Source: Micromussa lordhowensis
Taxonomy: Eukaryota; Cnidaria; Anthozoa; Scleractinia; Lobophylliidae
DNA length: 64,000 nt
Direction: 5' to 3'
NCBI GenBank assembly: GCA_964020085.1
Contig: OZ026596.1
Span: 34,744,834 to 34,808,833, forward strand
This document shows, piece by piece, positions 43,903 to 64,000 of the stretch. Position 1 is the first letter of the stretch. Each line of letters begins with the position of its first letter. The notes under the pieces were generated by a model. That model had not been told where the DNA came from. It ran no database searches and saw only the letters and a list, made by a program, of their open reading frames with translations. The translations under genes and the position numbers were made by a program.

Positions 43903-43983
43903 TAGATCAGTGAAGACGCCACATGAAAAGTATCGTTTATGCATATTACTCAGTATATCTTTGACAATATCAAGTACTGCATA

Positions 43984-44142
43984 GACCCTTTGCATAAATG
44001 GCGCCTAAATTTAAATAACAATACTTGATACATCCTTAGCCTCGGGCTCATGTTTTCAGACAAAGGATTTTTCACATGAATGTGAGGCTTAGGATGTAGA
44101 AGTATTGTTATTCAAATTTAGGCGCCATTTATGCAAAGGGTC
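43984..44142. mobile_element. 159-bp palindromic MITE
   Basis: Inverted repeats of ~45 bases starting GACCCTTTGCATAAATGGCG at both ends, flanked by TA (43982-43983, 44143-44144). The whole element can fold into one long hairpin. It is a second, separate insertion in the same LINE gene. Confidence 0.88.
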
Positions 44143-45478: not shown

Positions 45479-45616
45479 ATATGACTTTTTTTTGTTTCTC
45501 ATGGGAAATTTCTGGGATAAGCCTTTACACAGAAACTAAAAACTGGAAACAGGATTTGCTAGAGGAGTGTTGGGACATAGTTGAAACAACTAGAAGATCA
45601 AAATACTTTAAAGTGA
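45479..45616. other. Unassigned island between CR1-like LINE and Penelope array
   Basis: About 140 bases in neither flanking element. The + frame is open here (TETKNWKQDLLEECWDIVE...), but too short to call. It contains the left insertion junction of the array. Confidence 0.4.
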
Positions 45617-45682
45617 GGATAAAGATAAGTGACAGGCCTGCACGGACTCCCTGCGTGATTTAACTGTAAATGAATGAAGCCT

Positions 45683-48316
45683 TCATAGTTTAGCTTTAAC
45701 GAGCATGTCTGTAAGAGATTTACCTCTTCTGTACGATAGGATAGGCGGGTATTTGAAGATAGTGTTCAGCAAAGGCTGATTCTGTATTAAGTCCCAGTTT
45801 AGCATGAGTATATTTTTGAGGTTACATACCGATGGGTGGTATGTTGTTACAAATGGCAAGATTTGTTTTCGTGCTTTAGCTTTTTGTTGGAGTGCCGACT
45901 GTCTTCCGGTGAAGCTGACTTTCGATAACGTTGTTTGTATCATTTTGTAAGGATAGCCGCGCGCAATGAGGCGCGATTTAAAATTTGTGATACTTTCATT
46001 AAAGGCTGTTTCAGAAGAGTTTGTTCTAAGAAGTCTAAGGGCTTCACCTTTAATAAAACCTTTTTTCACGCCTGGTGGGTGGCTCGACGTGAAAAATGTG
46101 TACTGAAAGGTTTCAGTCGGCTTGTAATGTGTTCGGATGTCAAGGATCGATTCGTTTCTGAATCTTTCTCCTTTGGATATGATTGTATCGAGAAATGTTA
46201 TTTCCGTCTCTGAGATTTCAGCCGTGAATTTGATTGTAGGGTGGAAGTTGTTAGCTTGTTTCATGAACAGGTCTATTTCCTGTATGTTGGAATCCCACAA
46301 TGAGAAAATGTCGTCAATATAACGTTTCCACTTTAGCGGTTTTGTGTTGCTTTGATTTATCAATTTTGTTTCTATTTCCGCCATGAAGATGTTGGCAAAT
46401 GCAACTGCCATTTTCGTACCCATTGCAGTTCCATGGGTCTGGAGGTAATTCTTTCCAATAAATTGGAATGAATTTTCTTTAAGTATAAGGCAAAGCATTT
46501 CTTTGAGGTAGTGGGATGGGATGGGAGGGTTGTAGTTGTGAAATTTCTCGTATGCTGTGCATACTGTTGTGATACCCTCCTCTTGCGGTATGTTTGTGTA
46601 CAAGCTTGTAACATCCATAGATACCAATATAGTATTTTGAGAGACCTTTGTCTTCTCTATAAAGTTAATGAAGTGTGTTGTATCCTTAAGATAAGATTTT
46701 TGTGTCTGTGCAATCGGCTGTAGTAATTTGTCCACAAACGATGATAGTCTTTCTGTAGGGCCTTCGCAGCCCGAAATAATCGGTCTACCGACCGGATTTG
46801 GTTTGTGGATTTTAGTTAGGGTATAGAATATAGGGATTCTTGGAGGATTGCGTGTTTGAGAAAACCAATTTTTTGTCACGTCATCAATATAGTTATTTTG
46901 GTGAAGTCGTGTGACAAGCTCATTAACTCTTTGTAATGTTTCCACCGCCATGGTGCTTTTGAGAGGTTTATAATGTTCTCTATTGTCGAGATGGGTTTGA
47001 GCTTCATGTATTTTATCACACTTGTTCATTATGACAGTTGTTGTTCCTTTGTCTGCCTTTTTGAAATTGATTTCAGTGTTGTTAGCAAGCTCTTTAAGGG
47101 CTTTATATTCGTTGCGTGACAGATTGGTTTTAGGTTTTGATGGTTTGATCTCTGCAAGTTGGATTTTGACACTTTCCAAGTAGCTTTCAAGGGCAACTGA
47201 ATTCTGAACCGGTGGTACCCAGTCTGATTTGACGCGGAACGGGTGCGGTTCGGTATTTTTTGTGTGGAATATGTATTGTAGACGCATTCGTCTTGCGAAT
47301 TTTTCAAAGTCTTGCAAGAGCTAGCGTCTAATATTGTTCTCATCTGTCACCGGTGTCGGGACAAATTTGAGCCCTTTTGAAATCACATTGACTTGGTTGT
47401 CAGTTAGTTGGAGATTGGAGAGGTTTTTAATAAATCTCTCATTTGATTTTCTTTGTGTGGCAATCCATTTTTGAGCAAAGTGTGCTCGGCGCTGTTTTCG
47501 TCTAATGTTTGCATTGAACCCTGTACTTTGTTTAGGCCCCTTTGCGGTGGTTTGATTTTCAGAAAAGAGACTTTTGTATTTCTCAATATCTTTATTGTTT
47601 GCAGATGTCTGCAACACATGTGTGTACAATAGTTGTTTAAGCTCGTTGAAATCTTGCTGTAATTTTTCAACCTTATTTACATCGTAATTTACAATGTTTT
47701 CTGTGTTCGCCGAATGCGACTGTTCTCGCGTCGACTTATTTACATCAGTGCTGGCACTTTTGCTACTGTTTTTAGTGAACTTAGCCTTTTTGAATTTGTT
47801 TTCTTGGCTTTCTAGGCGTCTTTTGTGGTAGCGCGTGAGTGCGCTGACGAAGCCTTGTTCTGCTTGTATTTTGATCTCCTTTATTTCCTTGAGAAATGTG
47901 TCATCCGGCGGGATGTTCGCCCTTGCCGTGTATTGGAAGGATTTTGGACAGGTCTTTTTGTTTGTGTGCTCTTCAAGTTTCCTGATGGAATCCTTAGATT
48001 TTTTAATGTTAGTCTCTAGAGAGGCTATGTCCACATATTTTCGTTTCCTGCTTGGTTTTTGGTTTACAGCAGAAGTTTTAGGCAGACTGTTCTCATGGTT
48101 GTTCCGGTGGTAGTTTTTGTGCCTTGGTTCCATTTGTGATGCCGGGGGACTATTTTCATCTTCAGAATCCTCCATTTCATATTTGCTGTTGTATAGCAAA
48201 TCGAGTTCATCCTTTGGAGGTATACCCGTTGGTGTTTTGGGTATATCGATGTCGTAGCTTTCATCATCGTATCCTGCCGATGGCGAGAGATACTTCTGTA
48301 GGACGTTGTCTGTCAT
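45683..48316 (-). pseudogene. Penelope-like reverse transcriptase, array unit 1 (one stop)
   Basis: 877-codon frame from the ATG at 48316, interrupted by TAG at about 47321 (glutamine ~332 in the other units). It also differs from the others at residues ~284 (Arg to Trp) and ~799 (Glu to Lys). The downstream part, from about residue 335, still holds the whole reverse-transcriptase core. This is the array-terminal unit; its 3' UTR of 66 bases ends at the junction with unrelated DNA. Domain description is under unit 2. Confidence 0.9.
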
Positions 48317-48350
48317 TATCAATGGTGTTTGATAATATATGTATGGTCTC

Positions 48351-48397
48351 TAGCAAGACCGGCGGTTTCGATTCTGTACGAATCTCTTCAGTTGCTA
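48351..48397 (-). ncRNA. Hammerhead ribozyme, type I, array unit 1
   Basis: On the minus strand: stem I TAGCAA pairing with TTGCTA (6 bp); the core box CTGAAGA (fits CUGANGA); stem II GATTC/GAATC with loop GTACA; the box GAAA; a minimal stem III CC/GG plus the A-U pair, with loop GCC; then the cleavage triplet ending GGTC. Cleavage is predicted after C at 48357. All conserved core bases are present. A very short stem III is typical of hammerheads in Penelope-like elements and retrozymes. The cut leaves a 40-base leader before the ATG at 48316. Activity not tested. Confidence 0.9.
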
Positions 48398-48477
48398 TTT
48401 ACTGACAACAATAATATGTGAGGGAATAGTAGAGCAAGTACTCAGTTCTATTCCTGCATAAGTTGTGACGGTTGACC

Positions 48478-48580
48478 CTTTTATATGTGTAAGAGCGATT
48501 AGTGAGGATCGAAAGTTGTGTATTATCATTGGCCCATTCTATATGGAGAGGAGCCAATCACGAAAGTGCATTTTCGATCC
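48478..48580 (-). promoter_or_regulatory. Putative internal promoter of Penelope unit 1
   Basis: TATAAAAG on minus at 48485-48478 lies about 80 bases upstream of the hammerhead, placing a start near 48450. Upstream are two CCAAT boxes in opposite orientation (48528-48532, 48554-48558), enclosed by a 9-bp inverted repeat GGATCGAAA/TTTCGATCC (48506-48514, 48572-48580). Together these look like a polymerase II promoter carried by each unit. Confidence 0.55.
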
Positions 48581-48819
48581 GCTCTTTTTTGAAGCTCGGT
48601 TGTGTTTGTTTTGAAGGCTTTATTCGTGTACAATTTAGATGGCAGGCTTTCAAACTTAAAGATATACACTTCAGCATGTGTGCTATATGTTTTACTTCCT
48701 TTCCTTGGTAAAAATGGCCAAGATGTGTTTGCGTTGTGTGTGCAATCGTCATTTTTGTGTTGTACATTTGCGACTTGTGTATAGAACAAGTACAACTGTG
48801 TGGTTTCACACTGGGACGG

Positions 48820-48866
48820 GGCCTGTCTGGAATAGCTCAACAGTGGATAAAGATAAGTGACAGGCC
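48820..48866. other. Inverted repeat spanning the unit 1/unit 2 junction
   Basis: GGCCTGTC (48820-48827) and GACAGGCC (48859-48866) form a perfect 8-bp stem with a 31-base loop that contains the unit boundary (48844/48845). The same hairpin recurs at 52048-52094, 55276-55322, 58504-58550 and 61732-61778. At the left array end only the GACAGGCC half exists (45631-45638), so the complete hairpin is created only by tandem joining. Confidence 0.7.
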
Positions 48867-48910
48867 TGCACGGACTCCCTGCGTGATTTAACTGTAAATG
48901 AATGAAGCCT

Positions 48911-51544
48911 TCATAGTTTAGCTTTAACGAGCATGTCTGTAAGAGATTTACCTCTTCTGTACGATAGGATAGGCGGGTATTTGAAGATAGTGTTCAGCAA
49001 AGGCTGATTCTGTATTAAGTCCCAGTTTAGCATGAGTATATTTTTGAGGTTACATACCGATGGGTGGTATGTTGTTACAAATGGCAAGATTTGTTTTCGT
49101 GCTTTAGCTTTTTGTTGGAGTGCCGACTGTCTTCCGGTGAAGCTGACTTCCGATAACGTTGTTTGTATCATTTTGTAAGGATAGCCGCGCGCAATGAGGC
49201 GCGATTTAAAATTTGTGATACTTTCATTAAAGGCTGTTTCAGAAGAGTTTGTTCTAAGAAGTCTAAGGGCTTCACCTTTAATAAAACCTTTTTTCACGCC
49301 TGGTGGGTGGCTCGACGTGAAAAATGTGTACTGAAAGGTTTCAGTCGGCTTGTAATGTGTTCGGATGTCAAGGATCGATTCGTTTCTGAATCTTTCTCCT
49401 TTGGATATGATTGTATCGAGAAATGTTATTTCCGTCTCTGAGATTTCAGCCGTGAATTTGATTGTAGGGTGGAAGTTGTTAGCTTGTTTCATGAACAGGT
49501 CTATTTCCTGTATGTTGGAATCCCACAATGAGAAAATGTCGTCAATATAACGTTTCCACTTTAGCGGTTTTGTGTTGCTTTGATTTATCAATTTTGTTTC
49601 TATTTCCGCCATGAAGATGTTGGCAAATGCAACTGCCATTTTCGTACCCATTGCAGTTCCATGGGTCTGGAGGTAATTCTTTCCAATAAATTGGAATGAA
49701 TTTTCTTTAAGTATAAGGCAAAGCATTTCTTTGAGGTAGTGGGATGGGATGGGAGGGTTGTAGTTGTGAAATTTCTCGTATGCTGTGCATACTGTTGTGA
49801 TACCCTCCTCTTGCGGTATGTTTGTGTACAAGCTTGTAACATCCATAGATACCAATATAGTATTTTGAGAGACCTTTGTCTTCTCTATAAAGTTAATGAA
49901 GTGTGTTGTATCCTTAAGATAAGATTTTTGTGTCTGTGCAATCGGCTGTAGTAATTTGTCCACAAACGATGATAGTCTTTCTGTAGGGCCTTCGCAGCCC
50001 GAAATAATCGGTCTACCGACCGGATTTGGTTTGTGGATTTTAGTTAGGGTATAGAATATAGGGATTCTTGGAGGATTGCGTGTTTGAGAAAACCAATTTT
50101 TTGTCACGTCATCAATATAGTTATTTTGGTGAAGTCGTGTGACAAGCTCATTAACTCTTTGTAATGTTTCCACCGCCATGGTGCTTTTGAGAGGTTTATA
50201 ATGTTCTCTATTGTCGAGATGGGTTTGAGCTTCATGTATTTTATCACACTTGTTCATTATGACAGTTGTTGTTCCTTTGTCTGCCTTTTTGAAATTGATT
50301 TCAGTGTTGTTAGCAAGCTCTTTAAGGGCTTTATATTCGTTGCGTGACAGATTGGTTTTAGGTTTTGATGGTTTGATCTCTGCAAGTTGGATTTTGACAC
50401 TTTCCAAGTAGCTTTCAAGGGCAACTGAATTCTGAACCGGTGGTACCCAGTCTGATTTGACGCGGAACGGGTGCGGTTCGGTATTTTTTGTGTGGAATAT
50501 GTATTGTAGACGCATTCGTCTTGCGAATTTTTCAAAGTCTTGCAAGAGCTGGCGTCTAATATTGTTCTCATCTGTCACCGGTGTCGGGACAAATTTGAGC
50601 CCTTTTGAAATCACATTGACTTGGTTGTCAGTTAGTTGGAGATTGGAGAGGTTTTTAATAAATCTCTCATTTGATTTTCTTTGTGTGGCAATCCGTTTTT
50701 GAGCAAAGTGTGCTCGGCGCTGTTTTCGTCTAATGTTTGCATTGAACCCTGTACTTTGTTTAGGCCCCTTTGCGGTGGTTTGATTTTCAGAAAAGAGACT
50801 TTTGTATTTCTCAATATCTTTATTGTTTGCAGATGTCTGCAACACATGTGTGTACAATAGTTGTTTAAGCTCGTTGAAATCTTGCTGTAATTTTTCAACC
50901 TTATTTACATCGTAATTTACAATGTTTTCTGTGTTCGCCGAATGCGACTGTTCTCGCGTCGACTTATTTACATCAGTGCTGGCACTTTTGCTACTGTTTT
51001 TAGTGAACTTAGCCTTTTTGAATTTGTTTTCTTGGCTTTCTAGGCGTCTTTTGTGGTAGCGCGTGAGTGCGCTGACGAAGCCTTGTTCTGCTTGTATTTT
51101 GATCTCCTTTATTTCCTTGAGAAATGTGTCATCCGGCGGGATGTTCGCCCTTGCCGTGTATTGGAAGGATTTTGGACAGGTCTTTTTGTTTGTGTGCTCT
51201 TCAAGTTTCCTGATGGAATCCTTAGATTTTTTAATGTTAGTCTCTAGAGAGGCTATGTCCACATATTTTCGTTTCCTGCTTGGTTTTTGGTTTACAGCAG
51301 AAGTTTTAGGCAGACTGTTCTCATGGTTGTTCCGGTGGTAGTTTTTGTGCCTTGGTTCCATTTGTGATGCCGGGGGACTATTTTCATCTTCAGAATCCTC
51401 CATTTCATATTTGCTGTTGTATAGCAAATCGAGTTCATCCTTTGGAGGTATACCCGTTGGTGTTTTGGGTATATCGATGTCGTAGCTTTCATCATCGTAT
51501 CCTGCCGATGGCGAGAGATACTTCTGTAGGACGTTGTCTGTCAT
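48911..51544 (-). CDS. Penelope-like reverse transcriptase, array unit 2 (intact, 877 aa)
   Basis: Intact frame; I use the ATG at 51544 (the frame also extends two codons to a TTG). Residues 1-320 are acidic then basic and coiled-coil-like (RKRKYVDIASLETNIKKSK; a likely nuclear signal) with no recognised fold. Then come the Penelope hallmarks: KKADKGTTTVIMN at ~420, IPIFYTLTKIHKPNPVGRPI at ~495-515, catalytic D568 in SMDVTSLYTNIP, HGTAMGTKMAVAFANIFM at ~628-645, catalytic KRYIDDIFSLW at ~664-674, and EITFLDTIISK. The ORF stops after RRGKSLTDMLVKAKL, where other Penelope proteins pass into a GIY-YIG endonuclease; none is present here. The protein should copy RNA into DNA, perhaps at pre-existing 3' ends. 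A promoter and a hammerhead motif lie just upstream. Confidence 0.93.
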   Translation of the reverse strand: MTDNVLQKYLSPSAGYDDESYDIDIPKTPTGIPPKDELDLLYNSKYEMEDSEDENSPPASQMEPRHKNYHRNNHENSLPKTSAVNQKPSRKRKYVDIASLETNIKKSKDSIRKLEEHTNKKTCPKSFQYTARANIPPDDTFLKEIKEIKIQAEQGFVSALTRYHKRRLESQENKFKKAKFTKNSSKSASTDVNKSTREQSHSANTENIVNYDVNKVEKLQQDFNELKQLLYTHVLQTSANNKDIEKYKSLFSENQTTAKGPKQSTGFNANIRRKQRRAHFAQKRIATQRKSNERFIKNLSNLQLTDNQVNVISKGLKFVPTPVTDENNIRRQLLQDFEKFARRMRLQYIFHTKNTEPHPFRVKSDWVPPVQNSVALESYLESVKIQLAEIKPSKPKTNLSRNEYKALKELANNTEINFKKADKGTTTVIMNKCDKIHEAQTHLDNREHYKPLKSTMAVETLQRVNELVTRLHQNNYIDDVTKNWFSQTRNPPRIPIFYTLTKIHKPNPVGRPIISGCEGPTERLSSFVDKLLQPIAQTQKSYLKDTTHFINFIEKTKVSQNTILVSMDVTSLYTNIPQEEGITTVCTAYEKFHNYNPPIPSHYLKEMLCLILKENSFQFIGKNYLQTHGTAMGTKMAVAFANIFMAEIETKLINQSNTKPLKWKRYIDDIFSLWDSNIQEIDLFMKQANNFHPTIKFTAEISETEITFLDTIISKGERFRNESILDIRTHYKPTETFQYTFFTSSHPPGVKKGFIKGEALRLLRTNSSETAFNESITNFKSRLIARGYPYKMIQTTLSEVSFTGRQSALQQKAKARKQILPFVTTYHPSVCNLKNILMLNWDLIQNQPLLNTIFKYPPILSYRRGKSLTDMLVKAKL

Positions 51545-51578
51545 TATCAATGGTGTTTGATAATATATGTATGGTCTC

Positions 51579-51625
51579 TAGCAAGACCGGCGGTTTCGAT
51601 TCTGTACGAATCTCTTCAGTTGCTA
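51579..51625 (-). ncRNA. Hammerhead ribozyme, array unit 2
   Basis: Same 47-base motif as in unit 1, all core bases conserved. Predicted cut after 51585, upstream of the intact ORF ending at 48911. Confidence 0.9.
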
Positions 51626-51705
51626 TTTACTGACAACAATAATATGTGAGGGAATAGTAGAGCAAGTACTCAGTTCTATTCCTGCATAAGTTGTGACGGT
51701 TGACC

Positions 51706-51808
51706 CTTTTATATGTGTAAGAGCGATTAGTGAGGATCGAAAGTTGTGTATTATCATTGGCCCATTCTATATGGAGAGGAGCCAATCACGAAAGTGCATT
51801 TTCGATCC
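51706..51808 (-). promoter_or_regulatory. Putative internal promoter of Penelope unit 2
   Basis: Same TATA box, paired CCAAT boxes and enclosing inverted repeat as in unit 1, shifted by 3228 bases. No differences noticed. Confidence 0.55.
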
Positions 51809-52138
51809 GCTCTTTTTTGAAGCTCGGTTGTGTTTGTTTTGAAGGCTTTATTCGTGTACAATTTAGATGGCAGGCTTTCAAACTTAAAGATATACACTTC
51901 AGCATGTGTGCTATATGTTTTACTTCCTTTCCTTGGTAAAAATGGCCAAGATGTGTTTGCGTTGTGTGTGCAATCGTCATTTTTGTGTTGTACATTTGCG
52001 ACTTGTGTATAGAACAAGTACAACTGTGTGGTTTCACACTGGGACGGGGCCTGTCTGGAATAGCTCAACAGTGGATAAAGATAAGTGACAGGCCTGCACG
52101 GACTCCCTGCGTGATTTAACTGTAAATGAATGAAGCCT

Positions 52139-54772
52139 TCATAGTTTAGCTTTAACGAGCATGTCTGTAAGAGATTTACCTCTTCTGTACGATAGGATAG
52201 GCGGGTATTTGAAGATAGTGTTCAGCAAAGGCTGATTCTGTATTAAGTCCCAGTTTAGCATGAGTATATTTTTGAGGTTACATACCGATGGGTGGTATGT
52301 TGTTACAAATGGCAAGATTTGTTTTCGTGCTTTAGCTTTTTGTTGGAGTGCCGACTGTCTTCCGGTGAAGCTGACTTCCGATAACGTTGTTTGTATCATT
52401 TTGTAAGGATAGCCGCGCGCAATGAGGCGCGATTTAAAATTTGTGATACTTTCATTAAAGGCTGTTTCAGAAGAGTTTGTTCTAAGAAGTCTAAGGGCTT
52501 CACCTTTAATAAAACCTTTTTTCACGCCTGGTGGGTGGCTCGACGTGAAAAATGTGTACTGAAAGGTTTCAGTCGGCTTGTAATGTGTTCGGATGTCAAG
52601 GATCGATTCGTTTCTGAATCTTTCTCCTTTGGATATGATTGTATCGAGAAATGTTATTTCCGTCTCTGAGATTTCAGCCGTGAATTTGATTGTAGGGTGG
52701 AAGTTGTTAGCTTGTTTCATGAACAGGTCTATTTCCTGTATGTTGGAATCCCACAATGAGAAAATGTCGTCAATATAACGTTTCCACTTTAGCGGTTTTG
52801 TGTTGCTTTGATTTATCAATTTTGTTTCTATTTCCGCCATGAAGATGTTGGCAAATGCAACTGCCATTTTCGTACCCATTGCAGTTCCATGGGTCTGGAG
52901 GTAATTCTTTCCAATAAATTGGAATGAATTTTCTTTAAGTATAAGGCAAAGCATTTCTTTGAGGTAGTGGGATGGGATGGGAGGGTTGTAGTTGTGAAAT
53001 TTCTCGTATGCTGTGCATACTGTTGTGATACCCTCCTCTTGCGGTATGTTTGTGTACAAGCTTGTAACATCCATAGATACCAATATAGTATTTTGAGAGA
53101 CCTTTGTCTTCTCTATAAAGTTAATGAAGTGTGTTGTATCCTTAAGATAAGATTTTTGTGTCTGTGCAATCGGCTGTAGTAATTTGTCCACAAACGATGA
53201 TAGTCTTTCTGTAGGGCCTTCGCAGCCCGAAATAATCGGTCTACCGACCGGATTTGGTTTGTGGATTTTAGTTAGGGTATAGAATATAGGGATTCTTGGA
53301 GGATTGCGTGTTTGAGAAAACCAATTTTTTGTCACGTCATCAATATAGTTATTTTGGTGAAGTCGTGTGACAAGCTCATTAACTCTTTGTAATGTTTCCA
53401 CCGCCATGGTGCTTTTGAGAGGTTTATAATGTTCTCTATTGTCGAGATGGGTTTGAGCTTCATGTATTTTATCACACTTGTTCATTATGACAGTTGTTGT
53501 TCCTTTGTCTGCCTTTTTGAAATTGATTTCAGTGTTGTTAGCAAGCTCTTTAAGGGCTTTATATTCGTTGCGTGACAGATTGGTTTTAGGTTTTGATGGT
53601 TTGATCTCTGCAAGTTGGATTTTGACACTTTCCAAGTAGCTTTCAAGGGCAACTGAATTCTGAACCGGTGGTACCCAGTCTGATTTGACGCGGAACGGGT
53701 GCGGTTCGGTATTTTTTGTGTGGAATATGTATTGTAGACGCATTCGTCTTGCGAATTTTTCAAAGTCTTGCAAGAGCTGGCGTCTAATATTGTTCTCATC
53801 TGTCACCGGTGTCGGGACAAATTTGAGCCCTTTTGAAATCACATTGACTTGGTTGTCAGTTAGTTGGAGATTGGAGAGGTTTTTAATAAATCTCTCATTT
53901 GATTTTCTTTGTGTGGCAATCCGTTTTTGAGCAAAGTGTGCTCGGCGCTGTTTTCGTCTAATGTTTGCATTGAACCCTGTACTTTGTTTAGGCCCCTTTG
54001 CGGTGGTTTGATTTTCAGAAAAGAGACTTTTGTATTTCTCAATATCTTTATTGTTTGCAGATGTCTGCAACACATGTGTGTACAATAGTTGTTTAAGCTC
54101 GTTGAAATCTTGCTGTAATTTTTCAACCTTATTTACATCGTAATTTACAATGTTTTCTGTGTTCGCCGAATGCGACTGTTCTCGCGTCGACTTATTTACA
54201 TCAGTGCTGGCACTTTTGCTACTGTTTTTAGTGAACTTAGCCTTTTTGAATTTGTTTTCTTGGCTTTCTAGGCGTCTTTTGTGGTAGCGCGTGAGTGCGC
54301 TGACGAAGCCTTGTTCTGCTTGTATTTTGATCTCCTTTATTTCCTTGAGAAATGTGTCATCCGGCGGGATGTTCGCCCTTGCCGTGTATTGGAAGGATTT
54401 TGGACAGGTCTTTTTGTTTGTGTGCTCTTCAAGTTTCCTGATGGAATCCTTAGATTTTTTAATGTTAGTCTCTAGAGAGGCTATGTCCACATATTTTCGT
54501 TTCCTGCTTGGTTTTTGGTTTACAGCAGAAGTTTTAGGCAGACTGTTCTCATGGTTGTTCCGGTGGTAGTTTTTGTGCCTTGGTTCCATTTGTGATGCCG
54601 GGGGACTATTTTCATCTTCAGAATCCTCCATTTCATATTTGCTGTTGTATAGCAAATCGAGTTCATCCTTTGGAGGTATACCCGTTGGTGTTTTGGGTAT
54701 ATCGATGTCGTAGCTTTCATCATCGTATCCTGCCGATGGCGAGAGATACTTCTGTAGGACGTTGTCTGTCAT
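52139..54772 (-). CDS. Penelope-like reverse transcriptase, array unit 3 (intact)
   Basis: Same 877-codon protein as unit 2, with no amino-acid difference seen. All catalytic motifs are present. Start ATG at 54772, 35 bases inside the hammerhead motif of the same unit. Confidence 0.93.
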   Translation of the reverse strand: MTDNVLQKYLSPSAGYDDESYDIDIPKTPTGIPPKDELDLLYNSKYEMEDSEDENSPPASQMEPRHKNYHRNNHENSLPKTSAVNQKPSRKRKYVDIASLETNIKKSKDSIRKLEEHTNKKTCPKSFQYTARANIPPDDTFLKEIKEIKIQAEQGFVSALTRYHKRRLESQENKFKKAKFTKNSSKSASTDVNKSTREQSHSANTENIVNYDVNKVEKLQQDFNELKQLLYTHVLQTSANNKDIEKYKSLFSENQTTAKGPKQSTGFNANIRRKQRRAHFAQKRIATQRKSNERFIKNLSNLQLTDNQVNVISKGLKFVPTPVTDENNIRRQLLQDFEKFARRMRLQYIFHTKNTEPHPFRVKSDWVPPVQNSVALESYLESVKIQLAEIKPSKPKTNLSRNEYKALKELANNTEINFKKADKGTTTVIMNKCDKIHEAQTHLDNREHYKPLKSTMAVETLQRVNELVTRLHQNNYIDDVTKNWFSQTRNPPRIPIFYTLTKIHKPNPVGRPIISGCEGPTERLSSFVDKLLQPIAQTQKSYLKDTTHFINFIEKTKVSQNTILVSMDVTSLYTNIPQEEGITTVCTAYEKFHNYNPPIPSHYLKEMLCLILKENSFQFIGKNYLQTHGTAMGTKMAVAFANIFMAEIETKLINQSNTKPLKWKRYIDDIFSLWDSNIQEIDLFMKQANNFHPTIKFTAEISETEITFLDTIISKGERFRNESILDIRTHYKPTETFQYTFFTSSHPPGVKKGFIKGEALRLLRTNSSETAFNESITNFKSRLIARGYPYKMIQTTLSEVSFTGRQSALQQKAKARKQILPFVTTYHPSVCNLKNILMLNWDLIQNQPLLNTIFKYPPILSYRRGKSLTDMLVKAKL

Positions 54773-54806
54773 TATCAATGGTGTTTGATAATATATGTAT
54801 GGTCTC

Positions 54807-54853
54807 TAGCAAGACCGGCGGTTTCGATTCTGTACGAATCTCTTCAGTTGCTA
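54807..54853 (-). ncRNA. Hammerhead ribozyme, array unit 3
   Basis: Same motif, unchanged. Predicted cut after 54813, upstream of the intact unit 3 ORF. Confidence 0.9.
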
Positions 54854-54933
54854 TTTACTGACAACAATAATATGTGAGGGAATAGTAGAGCAAGTACTCA
54901 GTTCTATTCCTGCATAAGTTGTGACGGTTGACC

Positions 54934-55036
54934 CTTTTATATGTGTAAGAGCGATTAGTGAGGATCGAAAGTTGTGTATTATCATTGGCCCATTCTATAT
55001 GGAGAGGAGCCAATCACGAAAGTGCATTTTCGATCC
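54934..55036 (-). promoter_or_regulatory. Putative internal promoter of Penelope unit 3
   Basis: Same TATA box, paired CCAAT boxes and inverted repeat as in unit 1, unchanged. Confidence 0.55.
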
Positions 55037-55366
55037 GCTCTTTTTTGAAGCTCGGTTGTGTTTGTTTTGAAGGCTTTATTCGTGTACAATTTAGATGGCA
55101 GGCTTTCAAACTTAAAGATATACACTTCAGCATGTGTGCTATATGTTTTACTTCCTTTCCTTGGTAAAAATGGCCAAGATGTGTTTGCGTTGTGTGTGCA
55201 ATCGTCATTTTTGTGTTGTACATTTGCGACTTGTGTATAGAACAAGTACAACTGTGTGGTTTCACACTGGGACGGGGCCTGTCTGGAATAGCTCAACAGT
55301 GGATAAAGATAAGTGACAGGCCTGCACGGACTCCCTGCGTGATTTAACTGTAAATGAATGAAGCCT

Positions 55367-58000
55367 TCATAGTTTAGCTTTAACGAGCATGTCTGTAAGA
55401 GATTTACCTCTTCTGTACGATAGGATAGGCGGGTATTTGAAGATAGTGTTCAGCAAAGGCTGATTCTGTATTAAGTCCCAGTTTAGCATGAGTATATTTT
55501 TGAGGTTACATACCGATGGGTGGTATGTTGTTACAAATGGCAAGATTTGTTTTCGTGCTTTAGCTTTTTGTTGGAGTGCCGACTGTCTTCCGGTGAAGCT
55601 GACTTCCGATAACGTTGTTTGTATCATTTTGTAAGGATAGCCGCGCGCAATGAGGCGCGATTTAAAATTTGTGATACTTTCATTAAAGGCTGTTTCAGAA
55701 GAGTTTGTTCTAAGAAGTCTAAGGGCTTCACCTTTAATAAAACCTTTTTTCACGCCTGGTGGGTGGCTCGACGTGAAAAATGTGTACTGAAAGGTTTCAG
55801 TCGGCTTGTAATGTGTTCGGATGTCAAGGATCGATTCGTTTCTGAATCTTTCTCCTTTGGATATGATTGTATCGAGAAATGTTATTTCCGTCTCTGAGAT
55901 TTCAGCCGTGAATTTGATTGTAGGGTGGAAGTTGTTAGCTTGTTTCATGAACAGGTCTATTTCCTGTATGTTGGAATCCCACAATGAGAAAATGTCGTCA
56001 ATATAACGTTTCCACTTTAGCGGTTTTGTGTTGCTTTGATTTATCAATTTTGTTTCTATTTCCGCCATGAAGATGTTGGCAAATGCAACTGCCATTTTCG
56101 TACCCATTGCAGTTCCATGGGTCTGGAGGTAATTCTTTCCAATAAATTGGAATGAATTTTCTTTAAGTATAAGGCAAAGCATTTCTTTGAGGTAGTGGGA
56201 TGGGATGGGAGGGTTGTAGTTGTGAAATTTCTCGTATGCTGTGCATACTGTTGTGATACCCTCCTCTTGCGGTATGTTTGTGTACAAGCTTGTAACATCC
56301 ATAGATACCAATATAGTATTTTGAGAGACCTTTGTCTTCTCTATAAAGTTAATGAAGTGTGTTGTATCCTTAAGATAAGATTTTTGTGTCTGTGCAATCG
56401 GCTGTAGTAATTTGTCCACAAACGATGATAGTCTTTCTGTAGGGCCTTCGCAGCCCGAAATAATCGGTCTACCGACCGGATTTGGTTTGTGGATTTTAGT
56501 TAGGGTATAGAATATAGGGATTCTTGGAGGATTGCGTGTTTGAGAAAACCAATTTTTTGTCACGTCATCAATATAGTTATTTTGGTGAAGTCGTGTGACA
56601 AGCTCATTAACTCTTTGTAATGTTTCCACCGCCATGGTGCTTTTGAGAGGTTTATAATGTTCTCTATTGTCGAGATGGGTTTGAGCTTCATGTATTTTAT
56701 CACACTTGTTCATTATGACAGTTGTTGTTCCTTTGTCTGCCTTTTTGAAATTGATTTCAGTGTTGTTAGCAAGCTCTTTAAGGGCTTTATATTCGTTGCG
56801 TGACAGATTGGTTTTAGGTTTTGATGGTTTGATCTCTGCAAGTTGGATTTTGACACTTTCCAAGTAGCTTTCAAGGGCAACTGAATTCTGAACCGGTGGT
56901 ACCCAGTCTGATTTGACGCGGAACGGGTGCGGTTCGGTATTTTTTGTGTGGAATATGTATTGTAGACGCATTCATCTTGCGAATTTTTCAAAGTCTTGCA
57001 AGAGCTGGCGTCTAATATTGTTCTCATCTGTCACCGGTGTCGGGACAAATTTGAGCCCTTTTGAAATCACATTGACTTGGTTGTCAGTTAGTTGGAGATT
57101 GGAGAGGTTTTTAATAAATCTCTCATTTGATTTTCTTTGTGTGGCAATCCGTTTTTGAGCAAAGTGTGCTCGGCGCTGTTTTCGTCTAATGTTTGCATTG
57201 AACCCTGTACTTTGTTTAGGCCCCTTTGCGGTGGTTTGATTTTCAGAAAAGAGACTTTTGTATTTCTCAATATCTTTATTGTTTGCAGATGTCTGCAACA
57301 CATGTGTGTACAATAGTTGTTTAAGCTCGTTGAAATCTTGCTGTAATTTTTCAACCTTATTTACATCGTAATTTACAATGTTTTCTGTGTTCGCCGAATG
57401 CGACTGTTCTCGCGTCGACTTATTTACATCAGTGCTGGCACTTTTGCTACTGTTTTTAGTGAACTTAGCCTTTTTGAATTTGTTTTCTTGGCTTTCTAGG
57501 CGTCTTTTGTGGTAGCGCGTGAGTGCGCTGACGAAGCCTTGTTCTGCTTGTATTTTGATCTCCTTTATTTCCTTGAGAAATGTGTCATCCGGTGGGATGT
57601 TCGCCCTTGCCGTGTATTGGAAGGATTTTGGACAGGTCTTTTTGTTTGTGTGCTCTTCAAGTTTCCTGATGGAATCCTTAGATTTTTTAATGTTAGTCTC
57701 TAGAGAGGCTATGTCCACATATTTTCGTTTCCTGCTTGGTTTTTGGTTTACAGCAGAAGTTTTAGGCAGACTGTTCTCATGGTTGTTCCGGTGGTAGTTT
57801 TTGTGCCTTGGTTCCATTTGTGATGCCGGGGGACTATTTTCATCTTCAGAATCCTCCATTTCATATTTGCTGTTGTATAGCAAATCGAGTTCATCCTTTG
57901 GAGGTATACCCGTTGGTGTTTTGGGTATATCGATGTCGTAGCTTTCATCATCGTATCCTGCCGATGGCGAGAGATACTTCTGTAGGACGTTGTCTGTCAT
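55367..58000 (-). pseudogene. Penelope-like reverse transcriptase, array unit 4 (one stop)
   Basis: Identical to unit 2 except for CGA-to-TGA at about 56970-56972 (arginine ~343) and one silent change near 57593. The stop falls upstream of the reverse-transcriptase core, so a downstream start at the next ATG (MRLQYIF...) would give a 534-residue protein with the whole catalytic domain. Confidence 0.9.
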
Positions 58001-58034
58001 TATCAATGGTGTTTGATAATATATGTATGGTCTC

Positions 58035-58081
58035 TAGCAAGACCGGCGGTTTCGATTCTGTACGAATCTCTTCAGTTGCTA
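58035..58081 (-). ncRNA. Hammerhead ribozyme, array unit 4
   Basis: Same motif, unchanged. Predicted cut after 58041. The ribozyme is conserved although this unit's ORF has a stop. Confidence 0.9.
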
Positions 58082-58161
58082 TTTACTGACAACAATAATA
58101 TGTGAGGGAATAGTAGAGCAAGTACTCAGTTCTATTCCTGCATAAGTTGTGACGGTTGACC

Positions 58162-58264
58162 CTTTTATATGTGTAAGAGCGATTAGTGAGGATCGAAAGT
58201 TGTGTATTATCATTGGCCCATTCTATATGGAGAGGAGCCAATCACGAAAGTGCATTTTCGATCC
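58162..58264 (-). promoter_or_regulatory. Putative internal promoter of Penelope unit 4
   Basis: Same TATA box, paired CCAAT boxes and inverted repeat as in unit 1, unchanged. Confidence 0.55.
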
Positions 58265-58594
58265 GCTCTTTTTTGAAGCTCGGTTGTGTTTGTTTTGAAG
58301 GCTTTATTCGTGTACAATTTAGATGGCAGGCTTTCAAACTTAAAGATATACACTTCAGCATGTGTGCTATATGTTTTACTTCCTTTCCTTGGTAAAAATG
58401 GCCAAGATGTGTTTGCGTTGTGTGTGCAATCGTCATTTTTGTGTTGTACATTTGCGACTTGTGTATAGAACAAGTACAACTGTGTGGTTTCACACTGGGA
58501 CGGGGCCTGTCTGGAATAGCTCAACAGTGGATAAAGATAAGTGACAGGCCTGCACGGACTCCCTGCGTGATTTAACTGTAAATGAATGAAGCCT

Positions 58595-61228
58595 TCATAG
58601 TTTAGCTTTAACGAGCATGTCTGTAAGAGATTTACCTCTTCTGTACGATAGGATAGGCGGGTATTTGAAGATAGTGTTCAGCAAAGGCTGATTCTGTATT
58701 AAGTCCCAGTTTAGCATGAGTATATTTTTGAGGTTACATACCGATGGGTGGTATGTTGTTACAAATGGCAAGATTTGTTTTCGTGCTTTAGCTTTTTGTT
58801 GGAGTGCCGACTGTCTTCCGGTGAAGCTGACTTCCGATAACGTTGTTTGTATCATTTTGTAAGGATAGCCGCGCGCAATGAGGCGCGATTTAAAATTTGT
58901 GATACTTTCATTAAAGGCTGTTTCAGAAGAGTTTGTTCTAAGAAGTCTAAGGGCTTCACCTTTAATAAAACCTTTTTTCACGCCTGGTGGGTGGCTCGAC
59001 GTGAAAAATGTGTACTGAAAGGTTTCAGTCGGCTTGTAATGTGTTCGGATGTCAAGGATCGATTCGTTTCTGAATCTTTCTCCTTTGGATATGATTGTAT
59101 CGAGAAATGTTATTTCCGTCTCTGAGATTTCAGCCGTGAATTTGATTGTAGGGTGGAAGTTGTTAGCTTGTTTCATGAACAGGTCTATTTCCTGTATGTT
59201 GGAATCCCACAATGAGAAAATGTCGTCAATATAACGTTTCCACTTTAGCGGTTTTGTGTTGCTTTGATTTATCAATTTTGTTTCTATTTCCGCCATGAAG
59301 ATGTTGGCAAATGCAACTGCCATTTTCGTACCCATTGCAGTTCCATGGGTCTGGAGGTAATTCTTTCCAATAAATTGGAATGAATTTTCTTTAAGTATAA
59401 GGCAAAGCATTTCTTTGAGGTAGTGGGATGGGATGGGAGGGTTGTAGTTGTGAAATTTCTCGTATGCTGTGCATACTGTTGTGATACCCTCCTCTTGCGG
59501 TATGTTTGTGTACAAGCTTGTAACATCCATAGATACCAATATAGTATTTTGAGAGACCTTTGTCTTCTCTATAAAGTTAATGAAGTGTGTTGTATCCTTA
59601 AGATAAGATTTTTGTGTCTGTGCAATCGGCTGTAGTAATTTGTCCACAAACGATGATAGTCTTTCTGTAGGGCCTTCGCAGCCCGAAATAATCGGTCTAC
59701 CGACCGGATTTGGTTTGTGGATTTTAGTTAGGGTATAGAATATAGGGATTCTTGGAGGATTGCGTGTTTGAGAAAACCAATTTTTTGTCACGTCATCAAT
59801 ATAGTTATTTTGGTGAAGTCGTGTGACAAGCTCATTAACTCTTTGTAATGTTTCCACCGCCATGGTGCTTTTGAGAGGTTTATAATGTTCTCTATTGTCG
59901 AGATGGGTTTGAGCTTCATGTATTTTATCACACTTGTTCATTATGACAGTTGTTGTTCCTTTGTCTGCCTTTTTGAAATTGATTTCAGTGTTGTTAGCAA
60001 GCTCTTTAAGGGCTTTATATTCGTTGCGTGACAGATTGGTTTTAGGTTTTGATGGTTTGATCTCTGCAAGTTGGATTTTGACACTTTCCAAGTAGCTTTC
60101 AAGGGCAACTGAATTCTGAACCGGTGGTACCCAGTCTGATTTGACGCGGAACGGGTGCGGTTCGGTATTTTTTGTGTGGAATATGTATTGTAGACGCATT
60201 CGTCTTGCGAATTTTTCAAAGTCTTGCAAGAGCTGGCGTCTAATATTGTTCTCATCTGTCACCGGTGTCGGGACAAATTTGAGCCCTTTTGAAATCACAT
60301 TGACTTGGTTGTCAGTTAGTTGGAGATTGGAGAGGTTTTTAATAAATCTCTCATTTGATTTTCTTTGTGTGGCAATCCGTTTTTGAGCAAAGTGTGCTCG
60401 GCGCTGTTTTCGTCTAATGTTTGCATTGAACCCTGTACTTTGTTTAGGCCCCTTTGCGGTGGTTTGATTTTCAGAAAAGAGACTTTTGTATTTCTCAATA
60501 TCTTTATTGTTTGCAGATGTCTGCAACACATGTGTGTACAATAGTTGTTTAAGCTCGTTGAAATCTTGCTGTAATTTTTCAACCTTATTTACATCGTAAT
60601 TTACAATGTTTTCTGTGTTCGCCGAATGCGACTGTTCTCGCGTCGACTTATTTACATCAGTGCTGGCACTTTTGCTACTGTTTTTAGTGAACTTAGCCTT
60701 TTTGAATTTGTTTTCTTGGCTTTCTAGGCGTCTTTTGTGGTAGCGCGTGAGTGCGCTGACGAAGCCTTGTTCTGCTTGTATTTTGATCTCCTTTATTTCC
60801 TTGAGAAATGTGTCATCCGGCGGGATGTTCGCCCTTGCCGTGTATTGGAAGGATTTTGGACAGGTCTTTTTGTTTGTGTGCTCTTCAAGTTTCCTGATGG
60901 AATCCTTAGATTTTTTAATGTTAGTCTCTAGAGAGGCTATGTCCACATATTTTCGTTTCCTGCTTGGTTTTTGGTTTACAGCAGAAGTTTTAGGCAGACT
61001 GTTCTCATGGTTGTTCCGGTGGTAGTTTTTGTGCCTTGGTTCCATTTGTGATGCCGGGGGACTATTTTCATCTTCAGAATCCTCCATTTCATATTTGCTG
61101 TTGTATAGCAAATCGAGTTCATCCTTTGGAGGTATACCCGTTGGTGTTTTGGGTATATCGATGTCGTAGCTTTCATCATCGTATCCTGCCGATGGCGAGA
61201 GATACTTCTGTAGGACGTTGTCTGTCAT
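58595..61228 (-). CDS. Penelope-like reverse transcriptase, array unit 5 (intact)
   Basis: Same intact 877-codon protein as units 2 and 3, with no amino-acid difference seen. Start ATG at 61228; the unit's promoter region and hammerhead motif are complete. Confidence 0.93.
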   Translation of the reverse strand: MTDNVLQKYLSPSAGYDDESYDIDIPKTPTGIPPKDELDLLYNSKYEMEDSEDENSPPASQMEPRHKNYHRNNHENSLPKTSAVNQKPSRKRKYVDIASLETNIKKSKDSIRKLEEHTNKKTCPKSFQYTARANIPPDDTFLKEIKEIKIQAEQGFVSALTRYHKRRLESQENKFKKAKFTKNSSKSASTDVNKSTREQSHSANTENIVNYDVNKVEKLQQDFNELKQLLYTHVLQTSANNKDIEKYKSLFSENQTTAKGPKQSTGFNANIRRKQRRAHFAQKRIATQRKSNERFIKNLSNLQLTDNQVNVISKGLKFVPTPVTDENNIRRQLLQDFEKFARRMRLQYIFHTKNTEPHPFRVKSDWVPPVQNSVALESYLESVKIQLAEIKPSKPKTNLSRNEYKALKELANNTEINFKKADKGTTTVIMNKCDKIHEAQTHLDNREHYKPLKSTMAVETLQRVNELVTRLHQNNYIDDVTKNWFSQTRNPPRIPIFYTLTKIHKPNPVGRPIISGCEGPTERLSSFVDKLLQPIAQTQKSYLKDTTHFINFIEKTKVSQNTILVSMDVTSLYTNIPQEEGITTVCTAYEKFHNYNPPIPSHYLKEMLCLILKENSFQFIGKNYLQTHGTAMGTKMAVAFANIFMAEIETKLINQSNTKPLKWKRYIDDIFSLWDSNIQEIDLFMKQANNFHPTIKFTAEISETEITFLDTIISKGERFRNESILDIRTHYKPTETFQYTFFTSSHPPGVKKGFIKGEALRLLRTNSSETAFNESITNFKSRLIARGYPYKMIQTTLSEVSFTGRQSALQQKAKARKQILPFVTTYHPSVCNLKNILMLNWDLIQNQPLLNTIFKYPPILSYRRGKSLTDMLVKAKL

Positions 61229-61262
61229 TATCAATGGTGTTTGATAATATATGTATGGTCTC

Positions 61263-61309
61263 TAGCAAGACCGGCGGTTTCGATTCTGTACGAATCTCTT
61301 CAGTTGCTA
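61263..61309 (-). ncRNA. Hammerhead ribozyme, array unit 5
   Basis: Same motif, unchanged. Predicted cut after 61269, upstream of the intact unit 5 ORF. Confidence 0.9.
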
Positions 61310-61389
61310 TTTACTGACAACAATAATATGTGAGGGAATAGTAGAGCAAGTACTCAGTTCTATTCCTGCATAAGTTGTGACGGTTGACC

Positions 61390-61492
61390 CTTTTATATGT
61401 GTAAGAGCGATTAGTGAGGATCGAAAGTTGTGTATTATCATTGGCCCATTCTATATGGAGAGGAGCCAATCACGAAAGTGCATTTTCGATCC
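61390..61492 (-). promoter_or_regulatory. Putative internal promoter of Penelope unit 5
   Basis: Same TATA box, paired CCAAT boxes and inverted repeat as in unit 1, unchanged. Confidence 0.55.
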
Positions 61493-61822
61493 GCTCTTTT
61501 TTGAAGCTCGGTTGTGTTTGTTTTGAAGGCTTTATTCGTGTACAATTTAGATGGCAGGCTTTCAAACTTAAAGATATACACTTCAGCATGTGTGCTATAT
61601 GTTTTACTTCCTTTCCTTGGTAAAAATGGCCAAGATGTGTTTGCGTTGTGTGTGCAATCGTCATTTTTGTGTTGTACATTTGCGACTTGTGTATAGAACA
61701 AGTACAACTGTGTGGTTTCACACTGGGACGGGGCCTGTCTGGAATAGCTCAACAGTGGATAAAGATAAGTGACAGGCCTGCACGGACTCCCTGCGTGATT
61801 TAACTGTAAATGAATGAAGCCT

Positions 61823-64000
61823 TCATAGTTTAGCTTTAACGAGCATGTCTGTAAGAGATTTACCTCTTCTGTACGATAGGATAGGCGGGTATTTGAAGAT
61901 AGTGTTCAGCAAAGGCTGATTCTGTATTAAGTCCCAGTTTAGCATGAGTATATTTTTGAGGTTACATACCGATGGGTGGTATGTTGTTACAAATGGCAAG
62001 ATTTGTTTTCGTGCTTTAGCTTTTTGTTGGAGTGCCGACTGTCTTCCGGTGAAGCTGACTTCCGATAACGTTGTTTGTATCATTTTGTAAGGATAGCCGC
62101 GCGCAATGAGGCGCGATTTAAAATTTGTGATACTTTCATTAAAGGCTGTTTCAGAAGAGTTTGTTCTAAGAAGTCTAAGGGCTTCACCTTTAATAAAACC
62201 TTTTTTCACGCCTGGTGGGTGGCTCGACGTGAAAAATGTGTACTGAAAGGTTTCAGTCGGCTTGTAATGTGTTCGGATGTCAAGGATCGATTCGTTTCTG
62301 AATCTTTCTCCTTTGGATATGATTGTATCGAGAAATGTTATTTCCGTCTCTGAGATTTCAGCCGTGAATTTGATTGTAGGGTGGAAGTTGTTAGCTTGTT
62401 TCATGAACAGGTCTATTTCCTGTATGTTGGAATCCCACAATGAGAAAATGTCGTCAATATAACGTTTCCACTTTAGCGGTTTTGTGTTGCTTTGATTTAT
62501 CAATTTTGTTTCTATTTCCGCCATGAAGATGTTGGCAAATGCAACTGCCATTTTCGTACCCATTGCAGTTCCATGGGTCTGGAGGTAATTCTTTCCAATA
62601 AATTGGAATGAATTTTCTTTAAGTATAAGGCAAAGCATTTCTTTGAGGTAGTGGGATGGGATGGGAGGGTTGTAGTTGTGAAATTTCTCGTATGCTGTGC
62701 ATACTGTTGTGATACCCTCCTCTTGCGGTATGTTTGTGTACAAGCTTGTAACATCCATAGATACCAATATAGTATTTTGAGAGACCTTTGTCTTCTCTAT
62801 AAAGTTAATGAAGTGTGTTGTATCCTTAAGATAAGATTTTTGTGTCTGTGCAATCGGCTGTAGTAATTTGTCCACAAACGATGATAGTCTTTCTGTAGGG
62901 CCTTCGCAGCCCGAAATAATCGGTCTACCGACCGGATTTGGTTTGTGGATTTTAGTTAGGGTATAGAATATAGGGATTCTTGGAGGATTGCGTGTTTGAG
63001 AAAACCAATTTTTTGTCACGTCATCAATATAGTTATTTTGGTGAAGTCGTGTGACAAGCTCATTAACTCTTTGTAATGTTTCCACCGCCATGGTGCTTTT
63101 GAGAGGTTTATAATGTTCTCTATTGTCGAGATGGGTTTGAGCTTCATGTATTTTATCACACTTGTTCATTATGACAGTTGTTGTTCCTTTGTCTGCCTTT
63201 TTGAAATTGATTTCAGTGTTGTTAGCAAGCTCTTTAAGGGCTTTATATTCGTTGCGTGACAGATTGGTTTTAGGTTTTGATGGTTTGATCTCTGCAAGTT
63301 GGATTTTGACACTTTCCAAGTAGCTTTCAAGGGCAACTGAATTCTGAACCGGTGGTACCCAGTCTGATTTGACGCGGAACGGGTGCGGTTCGGTATTTTT
63401 TGTGTGGAATATGTATTGTAGACGCATTCGTCTTGCGAATTTTTCAAAGTCTTGCAAGAGCTGGCGTCTAATATTGTTCTCATCTGTCACCGGTGTCGGG
63501 ACAAATTTGAGCCCTTTTGAAATCACATTGACTTGGTTGTCAGTTAGTTGGAGATTGGAGAGGTTTTTAATAAATCTCTCATTTGATTTTCTTTGTGTGG
63601 CAATCCGTTTTTGAGCAAAGTGTGCTCGGCGCTGTTTTCGTCTAATGTTTGCATTGAACCCTGTACTTTGTTTAGGCCCCTTTGCGGTGGTTTGATTTTC
63701 AGAAAAGAGACTTTTGTATTTCTCAATATCTTTATTGTTTGCAGATGTCTGCAACACATGTGTGTACAATAGTTGTTTAAGCTCGTTGAAATCTTGCTGT
63801 AATTTTTCAACCTTATTTACATCGTAATTTACAATGTTTTCTGTGTTCGCCGAATGCGACTGTTCTCGCGTCGACTTATTTACATCAGTGCTGGCACTTT
63901 TGCTACTGTTTTTAGTGAACTTAGCCTTTTTGAATTTGTTTTCTTGGCTTTCTAGGCGTCTTTTGTGGTAGCGCGTGAGTGCGCTGACGAAGCCTTGTTC
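61823..64000 (-). CDS. Penelope-like reverse transcriptase, array unit 6 (5' part beyond window)
   Basis: The frame is open from the window edge to the stop at 61823, covering the second ~80% of the protein including all reverse-transcriptase motifs. By the 3228-base period its ATG should lie at 64456 and its hammerhead near 64491, both outside the window, so at least a sixth unit is present. Confidence 0.9.
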   Translation of the reverse strand, partial: EQGFVSALTRYHKRRLESQENKFKKAKFTKNSSKSASTDVNKSTREQSHSANTENIVNYDVNKVEKLQQDFNELKQLLYTHVLQTSANNKDIEKYKSLFSENQTTAKGPKQSTGFNANIRRKQRRAHFAQKRIATQRKSNERFIKNLSNLQLTDNQVNVISKGLKFVPTPVTDENNIRRQLLQDFEKFARRMRLQYIFHTKNTEPHPFRVKSDWVPPVQNSVALESYLESVKIQLAEIKPSKPKTNLSRNEYKALKELANNTEINFKKADKGTTTVIMNKCDKIHEAQTHLDNREHYKPLKSTMAVETLQRVNELVTRLHQNNYIDDVTKNWFSQTRNPPRIPIFYTLTKIHKPNPVGRPIISGCEGPTERLSSFVDKLLQPIAQTQKSYLKDTTHFINFIEKTKVSQNTILVSMDVTSLYTNIPQEEGITTVCTAYEKFHNYNPPIPSHYLKEMLCLILKENSFQFIGKNYLQTHGTAMGTKMAVAFANIFMAEIETKLINQSNTKPLKWKRYIDDIFSLWDSNIQEIDLFMKQANNFHPTIKFTAEISETEITFLDTIISKGERFRNESILDIRTHYKPTETFQYTFFTSSHPPGVKKGFIKGEALRLLRTNSSETAFNESITNFKSRLIARGYPYKMIQTTLSEVSFTGRQSALQQKAKARKQILPFVTTYHPSVCNLKNILMLNWDLIQNQPLLNTIFKYPPILSYRRGKSLTDMLVKAKL

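Follow-up and report, generated by a model that had tools for sequence, protein, structure and literature searches.

How does a retroelement without a recognizable endonuclease come to be repeated head to tail, almost unchanged, in the interior of a contig? The question is raised by a 64,000-nucleotide stretch of the coral Micromussa lordhowensis (assembly GCA_964020085.1, contig OZ026596.1, positions 34,744,834 to 34,808,833 of the forward strand; hereafter the window), in which positions 45617 to 64000 are occupied by copies of a 3228-bp Penelope-like element (PLE). The assembly holds 580.8 Mb in 1383 contigs, and OZ026596.1, here C2, measures 47.4 Mb, so that the window is C2:34,744,834-34,808,833. 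In the reading that we consider probable, a PLE lacking an endonuclease and bearing a hammerhead ribozyme has recently formed this tandem array, through a fixed start point of its reverse transcriptase (RT) together with later duplication of blocks of units.

Along the minus strand the sequence repeats every 3228 bp for 18,384 bp, that is, through five full units and 2244 bp with zero indels; at this offset it matches itself at 0.97, whereas the other offsets tried (3220-3236) yield 0.26-0.30. A first-pass annotation made from the letters alone had claimed exact head-to-tail units of this length, at least 5.7 of them, and the genome assembly bears this out: the array runs 18,257 bp past the window end and extends over C2:34,790,450-34,827,090, 36,641 bp in all, made up of 11 full units followed by a 5'-truncated twelfth of 1133 bp. 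The parts within the window, with the adjoining non-LTR (non-long terminal repeat) flank, are:

45617..64000, minus strand: head-to-tail array of the endonuclease-less PLE in 3228-bp units, from the periodicity and its continuation in the genome
45617..48844, minus strand: unit 1, adjoining the 3' flank, its open reading frame (ORF) interrupted by one TAG
48845..52072, minus strand: unit 2, with the same sequence as units 3 and 5
52073..55300, minus strand: unit 3
55301..58528, minus strand: unit 4, its ORF interrupted by one TGA (a private change, 56974); the change at 57593 is common to units 6 and 8
58529..61756, minus strand: unit 5
61757..64000, minus strand: unit 6, cut by the window end, its ORF intact in the genome
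43500..45616, minus strand: 3' flank, a decayed non-LTR retrotransposon in the same orientation as the array, from a reading of translated frames

The units are strikingly uniform. Five columns vary within the window (45922, 47323 and 47467 in unit 1, 56974 and 57593 in unit 4), and the five single-base differences in 18 kb first reported hold there; over units 1-11 the variable columns number six, namely 306, 1707 and 1851 (unit 1), 1674 (unit 4), 2293 (units 4, 6 and 8) and 3057 (unit 11). One of these is not private: column 2293, which is 57593 in unit 4, reads T in units 4, 6 and 8. The partial unit 12 carries a single 5-bp deletion. Five of the six columns represent C:G to T:A changes if the majority letter is taken as the older, and three of the five in-window variants lie at CpG sites (expected fraction 0.167, P 0.036), an excess suggesting that the changes stem from deamination during decay and not from RT errors, five events being few. 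The full-length ORF is intact in units 2, 3, 5 and 6-11 (nine of 11), with one nonsense codon each in units 1 and 4. The initial description of three intact ORFs in a row (2, 3, 5 and possibly 6) was right as to their intactness, unit 6 included, and wrong as to their order: units 2, 3 and 5 are not consecutive, and the unbroken run is the seven units 5-11. Its picture of a very homogeneous, recent array stands.

This copy number is derived from an assembly of near-identical repeats, which exceed most read lengths, and an assembly artefact might have left more units than truly exist or strung together units of several loci; a 54-kb contig composed of units of the kind arrayed on another contig (C507 and C4, see below) would suit such an explanation. 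The private variants are nevertheless ordered, non-array sequence is read on both sides of the window array, and three subfamilies are arrayed with different unit lengths, all of which makes an artefact improbable. When both flanks were joined and inspected by eye no target repeat was seen, the joined flanks not having been searched. The 5' flank could not be read as the same non-LTR element that forms the 3' flank. The latter, decayed element also contains a fold-back inverted repeat of ~170 bp (43979-44147).

The protein encoded by the units is represented in the window by these frames:

48911..51550, minus strand: 879-codon open frame of unit 2, first ATG at 51544 (877 aa), with an N-terminal helical part and a telomerase-like RT, ending at the thumb
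52139..54778, minus strand: intact ORF of unit 3
58595..61234, minus strand: intact ORF of unit 5
61823..64000, minus strand: ORF of unit 6, open up to the window edge

The closest fold to its RT is that of telomerase RT, a trait of Penelope-like elements, and because of this the 3228-bp element is a PLE, as had been recognized at first sight. With Pfam at E 0.001 the full 879-residue protein gave zero matches, and the RT part alone matched RVT_1. No GIY-YIG endonuclease fused to the RT was found in the array protein, which stops at the thumb motif, whereas canonical Penelope/Poseidon PLEs carry one at the C-terminus. The named relatives among PLE proteins come from Montipora, Oculina and Pocillopora, with rotifers the weakest, and no relatives were found in viral and prokaryotic collections; the RT tree has 60 rows (the window and 59 of 101 matches), was made by a quick method and has its long branches flagged. 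The count of the endonuclease motif over these relatives is uneven, several rows being fragments, and the stricter motif overlooked P0093 and P0097, where Pfam GIY-YIG reaches E 2.8e-5 and 0.0069 (the latter below the cut-off). Searches of the genome itself scored 52 of 4295 protein candidates and 7 of 508 DNA candidates, so that copy numbers are lower bounds. As a separate observation, in P0089, P0092, P0095 and most of P0102-P0219 GIY-YIG seemingly lies inside the thumb, before an LKDMLVSAKI-like end, and not C-terminally; by motif this layout occurs in three of the 101 PLE proteins of the first set and in 78 of the 118 further ones listed.

Coprina form a group of endonuclease-deficient PLEs alongside Athena and Terminons, and Craig et al. 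2021, on PLE clades, reportedly regard endonuclease-deficient PLEs as generally restricted to chromosome ends. Could the window array be of the telomere type, built by serial addition of endonuclease-less elements to a chromosome end? It resembles Athena and Terminons (PMC3846280, PMC6431247) in lacking a detected RT-fused GIY-YIG domain and in its long head-to-tail arrangement, and Terminons likewise bear hammerheads; its 3' end adjoins the flank, as for elements attaching by their 3' end. The same sources describe endonuclease-deficient PLEs in connection with telomeres, where Athena and Terminons carry reverse-complement telomere repeats adjoining the 3' hammerhead, whereas the array element has none at its 3' junction, is contig-internal and is made of compact 3.2-kb units. 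The locus lies 34.8 Mb into a contig of 47.4 Mb, and past the array 5' end 11.7 kb of unrelated sequence was read; the sister arrays on C4 and C8 lie likewise inside contigs of 39.9 and 34.7 Mb, and a scan of the window and of seven loci found neither (TTAGGG)2 nor its complement. A telomeric origin was therefore rejected on the interior location and on the telomere repeats not found at the 3' junction, and we hold it to be extremely improbable.

A first clue to how the units arose comes from the element ends, for which unit positions are numbered with Q1 at base 51550:

48845..48849, minus strand: tail end TATCC, equal to the array 3' end at 45617; Q2706, 66 nt past the stop codon
51704..51713, minus strand: TATA box TATAAAAGGG at Q3066, the aligned part of the C15 copy starting 26 bp downstream of it (equivalent of 51687)

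In all seven loci read (the window array, C15, C8, C13, C6, C2:36.4M and the C4 array) the 3' end falls at Q2706 or at most 4 bases later, the copy at C2:36.4M having the tail variant TAGCC. This near-constant 3' end close to the stop codon suggests a fixed internal start point for the RT, which for the present element is our inference from the junctions, whereas for the PLE of Anolis carolinensis it has been shown (PMC11167929). The RNA structure of the tail was not stabler than shuffles (z 0.27 and 0.54). At the other end, the alignment of a single copy on C15 starts at Q3092, and the copy is flanked on both sides by the 10-bp repeat TCTGAAAAAA. Starting 26 bp past the TATA box and bounded by a repeat, it looks as would be expected of a reverse transcript of a normal mRNA; the start of a copy at C8:34.04M lies further upstream, at Q2987. 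Array units in addition contain the ~385 bp that separate the tail point from the beginning of the C15 copy (through Q3091), and therefore either their template would have been longer than one C15-like RNA or the units were multiplied at the DNA level.

The search for other arrays proposed with the first-pass annotation revealed two further subfamilies arrayed in the same genome, on C4 (49.6 kb) and C8 (19 kb), and a tandem organization of the pseudo-LTR type is found in all three arrays. The C8 array (C8:28,704,069-28,723,343) belongs to a third subfamily, 58% identical, and has six 3217-bp units (the last of 3191), an 893-codon open frame in four of the six, and an inverted piece of ~550 bp at the array end. 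The C4 array (C4:10,349,307-10,398,922) comprises 18 units and a 280-bp 5' piece; 11 units are full (3281 bp, of three sequence types) and seven are shortened, namely two of 2174 bp without difference, two of 2215 bp and two of 1394 bp with one difference each, and one of 1679 bp. The shortened units start 0-4 bases past TATCC (at most 6 counting bases that fit both sides) and show four breakpoints; a fifth was found in C507, of which positions 45500-54000 were read. Each C4-type unit has two diverged tail copies of ~55 nt. With a constant tail meeting variable breakpoints, the upstream unit would have been synthesized from its tail point onward, directly on the 5' end of its neighbour, a pattern that may be read as re-initiation on a new cDNA end or as insertion exactly there. 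Variants in this array are shared by blocks (389A in three full units, 665C in four neighbours), and such sharing, together with the repeated near-identical shortened units, points to a later duplication of DNA blocks in this sister array. The contig C507 (54 kb), whose units match those of C4 at 99.4-100% in a different layout, may over positions 1-54000 represent an allele, a paralogue or a misassembled duplicate of C4-type units.

The same observations can be turned into an explanation by DNA recombination only, in which unequal crossing-over, slippage or gene conversion expands an ordinary two-copy tandem and reverse transcription accounts for the founder alone. The variant shared at two-unit steps (column 2293), the near-identical shortened units repeated in C4 and the differing layouts of C507 and C4 despite their close match all speak for it. 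Yet shortened units with five different breakpoints all start only a few bases from TATCC, a clustering hardly to be expected of random recombination, although this objection is silent on the window array with its lack of shortened units. We regard recombination alone as a tentative alternative, with rather less than an even chance. Under the combined model that we prefer, the window array, with its seamless junctions and a T that recurs at every other unit between 4 and 8, would go back to a founder derived from RNA longer than one unit or from exchange, followed by two-unit duplications.

A second feature of each unit is a putative type I hammerhead ribozyme, detected with a hand-written descriptor at five of five complete unit junctions and nowhere else in the window:

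48351..48397, minus strand: hammerhead core, predicted cut after 48357
51579..51625, minus strand: hammerhead core, predicted cut after 51585, which lies 40 nt upstream of the ATG
54807..54853, minus strand: hammerhead core
58035..58081, minus strand: hammerhead core
61263..61309, minus strand: hammerhead core

It has a stem I of 6 bp, a stem II of 5 bp and a stem III of two pairs beyond the A-U. Among 150 Markov sequences (64 kb, both strands) none contained an equally good hammerhead and there were eight looser matches. Rfam gave zero matches at gathering score over the whole window and, at E up to 10, no hammerhead but four chance-like matches in a stretch of two window units with two ribozyme sites; elsewhere there were sub-threshold hammerhead matches in L026 (HH9, E 0.0073) and L028 (RAGATH-1, E 5.1). 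Genome-wide the core pattern occurs 40 times against 0 in the reversed control, 31 of these occurrences being within the arrays on C2 (11), C4 (11) and C507 (9), and a looser pattern matches 42 times against 4. In six distinct hammerhead sequences 84 of 84 cells pair, five of 14 pairs are changed on both sides, and covariation is 0.376 versus 0.215 when shuffled (none of 500 shuffles reaches it), and slid versions pair at 18-44%; once the C8 array is included, 99.0% of 98 cells pair, six pairs are double-changed and covariation is 0.388 versus 0.212 (0 of 500). The pairs of stem III are invariant and hence uninformative for covariation. The compensatory changes across the diverged subfamilies indicate that a predicted, covarying hammerhead is present in each unit. 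Each of four cores folded in silico has a double hammerhead as its best homodimer, whereas the monomer folds best into a different structure; the dimer energies compare folds only and are silent on concentration. In the C8 array, where four of six units have the core, three of those four have a perfect 8-nt palindrome as their stem III stretch, too short for a monomer to form the whole stem. Hammerheads reportedly cleave as dimers, to judge by the title of Lunse et al. 2017.

Dimeric hammerheads invite a rolling-circle explanation, in which they would cut multimers into 3228-nt monomers that are ligated into circles, and the RT, circling repeatedly, would lay down a seamless array from the tail point with its 5' unit cut short. 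The seamless junctions of the window array and its 5'-truncated twelfth unit agree with this, as do the ~385-bp stretch in every unit, which calls for a template longer than the mRNA-like C15 copy, the dimeric best fold of the four cores, and coral circular RNAs with type I hammerheads described in PMC7229834. Column 2293 and the block structure of C4 nonetheless require DNA-level duplication, the same seamless units would be expected from read-through RNA or unequal exchange, and for the Anolis PLE unprocessed RNA was the main substrate in vitro and RNA-seq ends were not seen at the cut site (PMC11167929). A rolling circle is accordingly rather unlikely in our judgement. A bolder version, that the element is an autonomous, protein-coding counterpart of the retrozymes, with dimer-only hammerheads and 3.2-kb RT-encoding circles that are copied by rolling-circle reverse transcription onto DNA ends already present, no endonuclease being involved, and with one array thus giving rise to others in chromosome interiors, we think unlikely. 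Metazoan non-LTR retrozymes (PMC7229834, PMC7761336) share with it the tandem arrangement and the type I hammerhead in every unit and are numerous in coral genomes, but are non-autonomous and ~150-450 bp long, whereas the array unit has 3228 bp and an RT ORF of 877 aa and is thus no short noncoding unit.

The model combining a fixed start point and block duplication can be spelled out as follows. The RT would start on its RNA at the tail point 66 nt past the stop codon, not at the RNA end, and would prime on a DNA end that the element finds rather than cuts; without an endonuclease it would depend on breaks or on another element's enzyme. Head-to-tail founders could come from re-initiation at the tail point on the element's own new cDNA end, or from the copying of an RNA longer than one unit. 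Unequal exchange or slippage would then multiply blocks of units and keep them alike, and the hammerheads, whose cores fold best as dimers, may cut multi-unit transcripts into 3228-nt monomers starting 40 nt before the ATG. Several points weigh against this model. At the tail point the window array has seamless junctions that bear no re-initiation scar, so that its founder may have another origin, and its copy number is that of the assembly. The steps involving transcripts, circles and cleavage are predictions drawn from sequence. The hammerhead stretch is not clearly stabler than shuffles (z -1.65 and -1.36), and a 74-nt segment favours another fold both as monomer (-17.0 versus -8.8 kcal/mol) and as dimer (-39.6 versus -28.6). 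Finally, an endonuclease supplied in trans is possible, the 10-bp target repeat of the C15 copy being something that a nuclease could make.

Tandem PLEs and PLE hammerheads have already been published (PMC11167929, PMC7761336, PMC6155905). The initial suggestion that PLE tandems are two-copy partials and a long array unusual proved too narrow: PMC11167929 calls the tandem or partial-tandem state usual for PLEs, and PMC6431247 reports long head-to-tail arrays of the endonuclease-deficient rotifer Terminons. The first-pass annotation had also overlooked the missing endonuclease, the hammerhead of each unit, the near-constant tail end and the two other arrayed subfamilies. In Acropora millepora more than 6000 type I hammerhead motifs are given, 1508 of them canonical and the others PLE- or Terminon-like (PMC7229834). 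Among the closest described systems is the Poseidon PLE of Anolis carolinensis (PMC11167929), which shares the telomerase-like RT, the pseudo-LTR tandems and a hammerhead near the ORF start, the predicted cut lying 40 nt before the ATG in the array element as against 26 bp after it in Anolis. No description of long interior arrays of endonuclease-less hammerhead PLEs was recognized among the literature matches listed, whose coverage mostly leaves out subscription papers, and what looks new here is the existence of long, intact endonuclease-less arrays away from chromosome ends. Among the three routes of amplification first envisaged, the evidence speaks directly for duplication of DNA blocks, for instance by unequal exchange; rolling-circle reverse transcription may have taken part, and a re-integrated extrachromosomal circle has no specific evidence.

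These arrays touch on the open questions of how PLE tandems form, what hammerheads do and how endonuclease-less elements integrate, and long intact examples away from chromosome ends may reveal how PLE arrays are made. Testable material is provided by the homogeneous array and its nine intact copies, by the single copy that resembles an mRNA and by the sister array, whose shortened units have one junction point in common: the RT start point can be read from many junctions, and a dimer-only ribozyme predicts processing of tandem transcripts alone. If endonuclease-less PLEs thrive off telomeres in cnidarians, the tie between endonuclease loss and chromosome ends would be looser than described.

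Elsewhere the window holds a Ty3/gypsy-like element with a 1254-aa open frame (33084-36848, minus strand) encoding RT, RNase H and integrase, and a non-LTR retroelement (38210-41318, minus strand) with endonuclease and RT in two open frames. An alpha-kinase ORF of 368 aa (15445-16551) has many cnidarian relatives; among the 120 of 393 matches listed, the named ones are anthozoan except that of the hemichordate Saccoglossus kowalevskii.

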